64,000 nucleotides of DNA from an uncultured Bifidobacterium sp. (lineage in GTDB: Bacteria; Actinomycetota; Actinomycetes; Actinomycetales; Bifidobacteriaceae), in NCBI RefSeq assembly GCF_945269915.1, contig NZ_CALYOY010000005.1:1-64000 (forward strand), written 5' to 3'. Position numbers and translations under genes: made by a program. Numbering within the stretch: the stretch's first letter is position 1; each line of letters opens with the position of its first letter. This document shows positions 1 to 25,852 of the stretch, in pieces. The notes under the pieces were generated by a model. The model worked only from the letters and a program-made list of their open reading frames with translations. It made no database searches and was not told the origin of the DNA.

Positions 1-242
1 CCGGCCGGTGTTCCGTCGGATGGTGATGTGGTTGGTGTGGGTGTGGGTGTGGCGGCTGGTGTGGCGGGCCGGGTCTGTTGCCTGTCGGCCGTGCGGGGGG
101 ATCGACCCCCCTGTGCCGTCATGGCCATGGCCGTGGGTGCCGCGTCGGCGGCGGCCGGGGCGTGGATTGCCGTGGGCAGGATCATGGCGGCCATGAGCAT
201 GACGGCAAGGACCAGCCGCGGTGAATATGCGAGACGATGCAA
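1..242 (-). CDS. Secreted protein, N-terminal part only (runs off window start)
   Basis: An open frame begins at a TTG codon (242-240) and stays open to the window edge, giving about 80 residues. It starts MHRLAYSPR, followed by a hydrophobic core (LVLAVMLMAAMIL, residues 10-22) and a likely signal-peptidase site near IHA-APAAA, then a Thr/Pro-rich linker (TPAATPTPTPTTSP). This is the layout of an exported cell-wall enzyme or surface protein, but the functional domain lies outside the window, so none is assigned. In-frame upstream there is a TGA and no ATG or GTG, so TTG is the only start that keeps the full signal peptide; a purine-rich stretch (GGGGGAAAGAAG) precedes it. Confidence 0.6.
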   Translation of the reverse strand, partial: MHRLAYSPRLVLAVMLMAAMILPTAIHAPAAADAAPTAMAMTAQGGRSPRTADRQQTRPATPAATPTPTPTTSPSDGTPA

Positions 243-375
243 GCTACGGACTTCTTTCCCCCAAACTCATCCCACCGTCTCAAACCGGCGGGAAAGCAAC
301 CCCACGTGCGCCACGGTGCCCTCCCCGGCACCCTGCACACGCGATGGACCCCCCAGTCCATCGCCGAACATTATA
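243..375 (-). promoter_or_regulatory. Promoter and structured 5' leader of the secreted-protein gene
   Basis: On the minus strand a perfect TATAAT (375-370) gives a predicted transcript start near 363 and a leader of about 120 nt. The leader can fold three consecutive hairpins: a 7-bp stem (343-349 with 356-362), a 6-bp stem (315-320 with 327-332) and a 7-bp stem with one G-U pair around CCCGCCG/CGGTGGG just before the start region. A nine-codon upstream ORF (MSLGERSP, 270-244) ends one base before the TTG start. The -35 is weak. I could not match the leader to a known riboswitch; the c-di-AMP class was considered and its conserved blocks were not found. Confidence 0.4.
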
Positions 376-518
376 CCACACAACCAGCACACACCCACCA
401 GGCAGAAAGACATAACCCGGCCTGCCCGGCCAGCGGAAGGAAGACCAAGGCCTCCTCGGGGACATCCGGTCGGGCGGGATAGGTCGTCAGGGGAACTGTT
501 CCGCAGCCCCGGGGGCAT

Positions 519-905
519 CTATTCTGATGAAGTCAGAATGTGGTGTCCCGCCAGGGCGGCGGCCATGACGAGCTGCTCGGTAAAGAGGGGGAAGGATGCC
601 CTCGCCCCCAGCCCGGGGCAGGACGACGATGCGGCGGAACTCGTACAGGTTGCGGTGTCCGAGGCCTGGACGACACCACCGTGCGTTCAGTCGATGGTGA
701 TCACGACCTGGCCTGGCTCGTGGGCCGGCGTGGTCACCATCCAGGTGTGGTCAGCGTTCGCAGCAGGGCCGGTGCCCGTTGATGCGCCGAACCTGACGGA
801 GGTGGGGACACCTGGGGTGAGGTATCAATCCGGCCCGGTGTGGGGATGCCGCAGGGTGCAGGCGGGGTCAGAATGACGGTGGTGCCGCCGCCCCGATGCG
901 CAGCA
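519..905 (-). pseudogene. Decayed LPxTG cell-wall-anchored IPT/TIG-domain surface protein, 3' end
   Basis: Three minus-strand fragments in shifted frames read as one protein C-terminus. GGGTTVILTPPAP (about 905-865) and SVRFGAS...VTTPAHEPGQVVITID (about 800-690) resemble an IPT/TIG domain. An in-frame TGA follows at 689-687. NLYEFRRIVVLPRAGGEGILP (about 648-590) resembles a sortase anchor with an LPxxG motif. The hydrophobic tail LVMAAALAGHHILTSSE ends at TAG 521-519. Removing one C from the minus-strand C5 run (587-591) joins GEGILP to LFTEQLVMAAALAG in one frame, so that site is a simple frameshift. The remaining shift and the stop show that the gene is broken. The 5' part is not recognisable. 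Confidence 0.6.
521..539. repeat. Inverted repeat ATTCTGA-N5-TCAGAAT
   Basis: A perfect 7-bp inverted repeat separated by five bases overlaps the stop codon of the decayed surface gene. It could be a remnant of its terminator or an operator for the leftward promoter at about 375. There is no T-run after it on the minus strand. Confidence 0.35.
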
Positions 906-1131
906 GCACCTTCCCGATACCCAGACACACCAGGGTCGCCATATCGGGAAAAGAATAACGCAGGCTGAAGTGAGGAAACGTCGGCCCTGGTCGGGCCGTG
1001 ACCCACGGAAAGGCGCCAGACGGCTGGGGCCGATCCCCCCCCCCCCATGTCGTAGCGGGGTCGGCGGAAACTGTGTGATTTGTATCCACGGGAGGGTGTT
1101 CGGCTTGGCCAGGGAGGCTCATGGATATGGA
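906..1131. other. Non-coding or unreadable stretch with a 12-C homopolymer
   Basis: No convincing gene is seen. Frames on the minus strand change repeatedly and may be the rest of the decayed surface protein. A run of 12 C (1035-1046; G12 on the minus strand) is the longest homopolymer I noticed in the window. The stretch ends at the terminator of the Rpf-like gene, so no room remains for a separate promoter. Confidence 0.4.
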
Positions 1132-1167
1132 AGGATCCCCCACCGGCTGACGCCTGTGGGGGATCCT
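1132..1167 (-). terminator. Terminator hairpin of the Rpf-like gene
   Basis: A 12-bp stem (1132-1143 with 1156-1167, arms AGGATCCCCCAC and GTGGGGGATCCT) with a 12-nt loop lies about 20 bases past the stop codon of the minus-strand gene. Only a short, mixed T stretch follows, so termination may be imperfect. Confidence 0.6.
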
Positions 1168-1188
1168 GAGTGGTCTTGGTCTGTCGGA

Positions 1189-2211
1189 TCAGTACCAGCC
1201 CGCTGCCTGGGAGTGGGACCAGGCGCCGCAGGGGGTGCCGTACCGTCCCTGGATGTACCCGAGGCCCCAGGTGATCTGGGTGCGGGGGTTGGTCTGCCAA
1301 TCCGCTCCGGCCGACGACATCTTGCTGCCGGGCAGTGCCTGGGGGATGCCGTAGGCACCGGAAGGATTGGCGGCGTTGGTTCTCCAGCCGGACTCCTTGT
1401 TCCAGAGCTGGACCAGGCAGGTGAACTGGTCCTCGCCCCACCCTCGTGAGGTGACCAGTTCGTGGGCGACACTCTGGGACTCGCCGACGGGTGCCGTGGT
1501 CGTGGCGGGGCCGGACGAGACCGACGAGCCAGCACTGCCGGCACTGCCGGTGCCGACCAGGACGACCTTGTCTACCGGAGCCGACTTGACAAAGGAGGCG
1601 AAGACGTTGCTGGACAGGTTCTTCCTGCCGGCCGCCGTGACCAGGCTGGTGGTCTCCATGACGCCGTTCTTCCCTTCGGTCTTGACCTTGGTGGTTCCGG
1701 CGGGGAGGGAGTCGGTCTTCTCTTCGATGGTGTTGAAGGGGATGTCGGACTCTTCGGTGGCGACCTGGGCGTCGGCCCGGTCGATCCTGATGACGGTCTT
1801 CTCGCTGACCGGTGTGGTCAGGGCCGGGCTGACCTGGTCACCGGGTTCCAGGGTGATGTCGCCGGCCTCGAGAACGGACTTCACGTCGGTGAAGTGGTTG
1901 CCCAGGACCACCCTGTTCTTCCCGTTGATCTGCACGGTGACATAGGAGGTGTTGGCGGTTGACCCGCCCTCGCCGTTGCGCAGGGCCTGCCTGGTGGAGC
2001 TACGTGAGACCTCCAGGTTGCCCTGCTGGGTGGCGGAATATGCAGTCATGCCCTGGGTGGGGCTGCCGCCCTGTGATGTATAGAAGTCGCGGGAGATGAA
2101 TCCCGCACCGATGACCATGCCGATGACGGTGACGCCTGCGCCCAACCGCAGCCACTGACGCCTGGTCAGGGCCTTGACCGCGGCCATCCGCCCTCTTCGA
2201 TGGTTCGCCAT
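1189..2211 (-). CDS. G5-domain, Rpf/transglycosylase-like cell-wall protein
   Basis: This is an envelope-anchored muralytic protein of about 340 residues. A basic N-terminus precedes one membrane segment or signal anchor (about residues 21-41). A G5 domain follows (about 147-221), then a Ser/Gly/Thr linker and a C-terminal lysozyme-like transglycosylase fold (about 258-340) with the probable catalytic Glu in NKESGW (about residue 273) and the GAYGIPQALPGSKM segment typical of SLT/Rpf-like enzymes. Such proteins cleave peptidoglycan during growth and division. The ATG at 2211 is preferred over the TTG at 2232 because AGGAG sits 4 nt before it. It lies downstream of trxA but has its own promoter. 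Confidence 0.85.
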   Translation of the reverse strand: MANHRRGRMAAVKALTRRQWLRLGAGVTVIGMVIGAGFISRDFYTSQGGSPTQGMTAYSATQQGNLEVSRSSTRQALRNGEGGSTANTSYVTVQINGKNRVVLGNHFTDVKSVLEAGDITLEPGDQVSPALTTPVSEKTVIRIDRADAQVATEESDIPFNTIEEKTDSLPAGTTKVKTEGKNGVMETTSLVTAAGRKNLSSNVFASFVKSAPVDKVVLVGTGSAGSAGSSVSSGPATTTAPVGESQSVAHELVTSRGWGEDQFTCLVQLWNKESGWRTNAANPSGAYGIPQALPGSKMSSAGADWQTNPRTQITWGLGYIQGRYGTPCGAWSHSQAAGWY

Positions 2212-2321
2212 TACACTCCTCTGTTTGGCCAACAGATCCTCAGCGACATGCAGACCGGACTCAATCCGCGCCCGCCCTCATCCGGGCATACCGAAAGAGG
2301 CGCTGGAACATATATCTGACC

Positions 2322-25841: not shown

Positions 25842-25852
25842 GGGGGGGGGGG
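25842..25852 (+). repeat. G11 homopolymer between convergent gene ends
   Basis: Eleven consecutive G fill most of the 16-base gap between the UPF0210 stop codon and the trmL stop codon (minus strand), one base from the latter. Confidence 0.9.

Follow-up and report, generated by a model that had tools for sequence, protein, structure and literature searches.

Which protein do the frame-broken coding remains at the left end of this contig represent, and did the gene truly die there? The window, a 64,000-nucleotide stretch of DNA from an uncultured Bifidobacterium sp. (contig NZ_CALYOY010000005.1), holds these remains just beyond an intact rpfB-like gene. A sequence-only reading had proposed that minus-strand fragments in different frames at 519-905 form one C-terminus of a decayed, LPxTG-anchored IPT/TIG surface protein. 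Translation and frameshift-aware alignment agree that the fragments form a single C-terminus, and the bounds proposed for it were good: the clear match begins at 889, and its true start may be at 922. We are confident that positions 889-519 on the minus strand belong to a pseudogene and preserve the end of an RCC1/Flg_new LPxTG gene whose original place was immediately downstream of rpfB (Table 1).

Table 1. Coordinates of the relic's pieces and of the features around it (window positions)
Feature	Positions	Strand	Basis or remark
Beginning of a second signal-peptide protein, probably related, cut by the contig's left end	3..242	minus	DNA match to the start of the sister's second surface gene
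Relic, final piece: wall-anchor signal, hydrophobic segment (LFTEQLVMAAALAGHHILTSSE and a stop)	519..591	minus	translation and frameshift-aware alignment to family C-termini
Relic: beta-rich domain, terminal portion, with LPxxG-like motif (RNLYEFRRIVVLPRAGGEGIL)	592..654	minus	translation and frameshift-aware alignment
Relic: beta-rich (IPT-like) domain, C-terminal half; 52 codons including in-frame TGA at 689-687	657..812	minus	single-frame tblastn, E to 2.9e-9
Relic: beta-rich domain, N-terminal strand (GGTTVILTPPAPCGI)	845..889	minus	composite frameshift-aware alignment, collinearity
G12 tract between rpfB and the relic	1035..1046	minus	possible phase-variation tract remnant
RpfB-like gene, intact upstream neighbor and synteny marker	1189..2232	minus	G5 and DUF348 domains, weak SLT

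The lesions can be followed along the minus strand. Translation of window positions 1-1500 gives GVPTSVRFG...VVITID, a stop and then THGG... in frame 1, and 812-657 as a whole reads in one frame as GVPTSVRFGASTGTGPAANADHTWMVTTPAHEPGQVVITID, a stop and THGGVVQASD; the nonsense lesion is an in-frame TGA. Frame 0 then gives RNLYEFRRIVVLPRAGGEGILP, with the stretch RNLYEFRRIVVLPRAGGEGIL spanning 654-592, and LFTEQLVMAAALAGHHILTSSE in frame 1 runs to a stop near 519. The LPRAGG motif and the hydrophobic stretch LFTEQLVMAAALAGHHILTSSE are both present, in different frames. The family alignment demands the frame change between them at 587-591, a five-G run on the plus strand and C5 on the minus strand, which is where the earlier reading had placed it. 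That reading had also noted a TGA and one further shift; besides the TGA we find frame changes at 657-654 and, between GGTTVILTPPAPCGI (889-845) and GVPTSV (812), at ∼847-812. The piece at 845-889 is by itself too short to exceed shuffles, and its probable assignment rests on its collinear place. At the other end, the tail reads AGHHILTSSE where relatives have a basic tail such as ARRLR. In all, ∼115 of roughly 1,200–1,800 residues are left, and no signal peptide was found upstream of the relic. A long plus-strand frame at 28-876, which lies over the relic, is treated as a chance frame of GC-rich DNA.

Because GC-rich DNA here yields long spurious frames on both strands, one might suppose that the fragments resemble a surface protein by chance within noncoding DNA. 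We regard this as having a negligible probability, since the scores are three to five times those of shuffled controls and single-frame E values reach 3e-9. Indeed, even unmended single frames match paralogues in the same genome by tblastn, one on contig C69 (E 2.9e-9) and another on contig C38 (E 9.8e-7, with 52% identity over 52 residues). The frameshift-aware score is 185–205 for the best relatives and 35–59 for shuffled protein. Across family C-termini, the kind of search that the sequence-only reading had suggested, similarity is clear, with scores of 108-205 vs 32-59 for shuffled proteins. Among 27 genomes of the genus, a set that includes the window's own, 22 contain matches to the joined fragments, and most of these matches lie in large open frames. 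With homology this far above shuffles, and with related genomes keeping intact members at this locus, the relic of a sortase-anchored surface protein proposed earlier is genuine.

The family, however, is not the one first named. Intact relatives carry RCC1-repeat and Flg_new (Listeria-Bacteroides repeat) regions, followed by a beta-rich domain and then by an LPxxG-like motif with a hydrophobic tail. Proteins of this build make up a known family of bee bifidobacteria, the RCC1-propeller/Listeria-Bacteroides-repeat LPxTG family, whose tandem clusters, diversity and breakage at contig borders were described by Bottacini and colleagues (PMC3447821) and Ellegaard and colleagues (PMC4449606). The relic resembles those honeybee-bifidobacterial proteins (PMC4449606; PMC3447821) in its C-terminal domain and rpfB-adjacent position, and apparently in its LPxxG motif and hydrophobic segment, which a frame change separates; unlike them, it has no start, signal peptide, Flg_new or RCC1 region and carries a stop and frame changes. 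The window's own genome encodes three sortases and other intact family members.

What stands of the first identification is therefore the sortase-anchored surface protein, whereas the IPT/TIG label is only suggestive and sub-threshold. The family does have the GPxxGGTxV start and the all-beta pattern of the IPT/TIG domain (PF01833), but it stays below the gathering score and carries an RCC1 propeller inside the domain. A search of the whole own genome for PF01833 (TIG) gave no match, nor did the TIG model match the relic's joined C-terminal half-domain. RCC1-free composites of two family members scored 14.2 and 12.7 bits (E 0.044 and 0.13) against Pfam TIG, where the curated (gathering) cut-off is 20.9 bits. 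Even an intact paralogue falls short of the threshold of the Pfam anchor model. For the own-genome paralogue on C38, AlphaFold2 predicts (mean pLDDT 83) strands on both sides of the propeller, a structure that would fit an Ig/IPT-like domain carrying an inserted propeller.

The domain layout also bears on how much of the gene has gone. In intact genes, the motif GPxxGGTTVTLTPPxxRGI leads directly into the RCC1 repeats, with the C-terminal half-domain placed after the final one. The relic has the half-domains ∼30 bases apart, without an RCC1 remnant between them, and therefore the whole RCC1 set is missing. The same short spacing would be expected had the relic descended from a short family member that never carried RCC1 repeats. 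We consider such an origin quite unlikely, given that the repeats sit between the two half-domains in all intact relatives examined; the relic would lack a start and signal peptide in either case. Farther upstream, no RCC1 or Flg_new remains rise above shuffles in 857-1190, and no family remains are detectable in 923-1130. An alignment to B. indicum had seemed to reach 1098, but a separate test did not bear out this extension. The favored reading is that the relic is a remnant of the RCC1/Flg_new family rather than a member of it, its repeats lost by deletion.

The signal peptide would export an intact protein of this kind, and sortase would attach it to the wall via LPxxG, with RCC1 propellers outside the cell, as its domains and the earlier description (PMC4449606) suggest. 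The gene probably reached its present state through a deletion, in a family rich in repeats and in tandem duplicates, with small indels and a nonsense change coming later. As judged from its translation, the relic cannot yield an anchored protein: it retains neither start nor signal peptide, neither Flg_new nor any RCC1 repeat, and what is left is interrupted by a stop and several frame changes.

The contig ends 519 bases from the relic, so that single indels could be sequence errors. Might the true gene be intact, and the damage have arisen in sequencing or assembly, at a contig end rich in repeats? One of the frame changes falls in a homopolymer run, and RCC1 genes are broken at other contig ends as well. 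An artefact would nevertheless have to explain a nonsense codon and several separate frame changes within continuous sequence, the loss of the N-terminal bulk and of all RCC1 repeats beside an intact rpfB, and a stretch (923-1130) empty of detectable family remains. We therefore hold an artefact to be very improbable and retain the pseudogene reading.

Comparison of the locus among relatives, another step suggested by the sequence-only reading, uncovered intact family members beside rpfB in related genomes. The RpfB-like gene, which has one match in each of 27 genomes, anchors the comparison. B. indicum and its close sister G015 have rpfB, then two surface genes (∼1,780-1,840 codons), then a permease. 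A single surface gene follows rpfB in B. mellis, B. mizhiense, B. sp. 7101 and B. sp. B4142, and none does in B. polysaccharolyticum and two B. asteroides strains. The same-locus members are intact in B. indicum, G015, B. mellis, B. mizhiense and sp. 7101; in B4142 the family frame is open at the locus and the signal peptide is out of frame. DNA similarity between the window and B. indicum continues through rpfB to 1131, breaks, and resumes at the relic. Since the DNA at 242-3 matches the start of the sister's second surface gene, the window's order is rpfB, a dead first gene and a probable second gene; the protein encoded at 3..242 gives a weak N-terminal match (E 0.004).

Position, rather than sequence, is the evidence for equating the relic with the B. 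indicum locus gene. In the tree the relic has a long branch, placed with weak support close to another subgroup and apart from the B. indicum locus genes; the tree does not single out the exact parent gene.

Some observations concern other contig ends. The right end of contig C5 and the left end of C38 each interrupt an RCC1 gene, at the same domain position in both cases, and might be genomic neighbors; no shared end k-mers were found between these two ends. An attempt to join the left end of C5 to the right end of C12 by shared end k-mers gave no overlap that would place the other end of the second gene. At the right end of C12, beyond the permease, a short stretch on the plus strand, RVKAPSGLTFTEMVAGS, shows a resemblance to an RCC1 repeat (E 5.8) and is possibly another relic, on the far side of the locus.

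The gene loss looks recent relative to paralogue divergence, because codon-position composition and divergence are still gene-like. The GC content of the relic by codon position is 0.63/0.60/0.81. Its differences from an intact paralogue fall 18/18/29 over the codon positions, compared with 17/18/28 for an intact pair, and the excess change at codon positions 1 and 2 that would be a sign of long neutral decay is not seen in the relic.

A separate pattern emerged in the intact genes. Of the 48 examined, half (24) have a tract of at least 9 G within the initial 300 bases of the open frame or immediately ahead of it, and 179 kb of family gene bodies contain no tract of at least 9 G. In the RCC1 surface genes that we examined, from relatives and from contig C15, the tract lies near the end of the signal-peptide region, and its length decides whether the signal peptide of these RCC1/LPxTG genes is in frame. 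Of 22 tabulated cases, 7 have the signal peptide in frame (tract lengths 11, 14 and 17) and 15 have it out of frame (12, 13 and 15, and also 14 in the B. indicum-like lineage). One gene shared by B. indicum and its sister has G14 in the former (out of frame) and G13 in the latter (in frame), and its flanks are identical over the stretch compared.

This family-wide poly-G pattern is well supported, and, read from sequence, it implies ON/OFF phase variation by slippage in the RCC1/LPxTG family. Slippage phase variation via poly-G has been shown for the pili of B. breve (PMC9187656). Like those pilus genes, many intact relatives have a frame-setting G tract between the signal peptide and the mature part; unlike those pilus operons (PMC9187656), single RCC1 surface genes are concerned here. 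In the literature searched, phase variation is known for bifidobacterial pili, and we found no report of it for the RCC1/Flg_new family; the paper on the RCC1/Flg_new proteins (PMC4449606) does not use the term.

The relic's former switch may have been the G12 tract that lies between it and rpfB. No signal peptide precedes the tract (1046-1035), and tracts of at least 9 G or C are frequent in the own genome (132 and 109 nine-base matches, overlapping ones counted). A G11 tract also occurs elsewhere in the window, at 25842-25852 on the plus strand. It is doubtful that the relic represents a defunct gene from a group of poly-G-switched surface contingency genes in bee bifidobacteria, with the G12 tract as a remnant of its switch.

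The relic is an ordinary pseudogene, a dead copy from a known, fast-changing gene family, carried by a bacterium akin to bee-gut Bifidobacterium, and such a decayed copy is an ordinary consequence of known family behavior. In itself the pseudogene matters little, being one more trace of turnover in a duplicating, diversifying surface-protein family. At the locus from rpfB to the permease, copy number ranges from zero to two among relatives, and here one copy has been caught decaying. As for the poly-G tracts near the signal peptide in half of the intact genes, they would open phase variation of a major surface-protein family in a core bee-gut bacterium to direct test.
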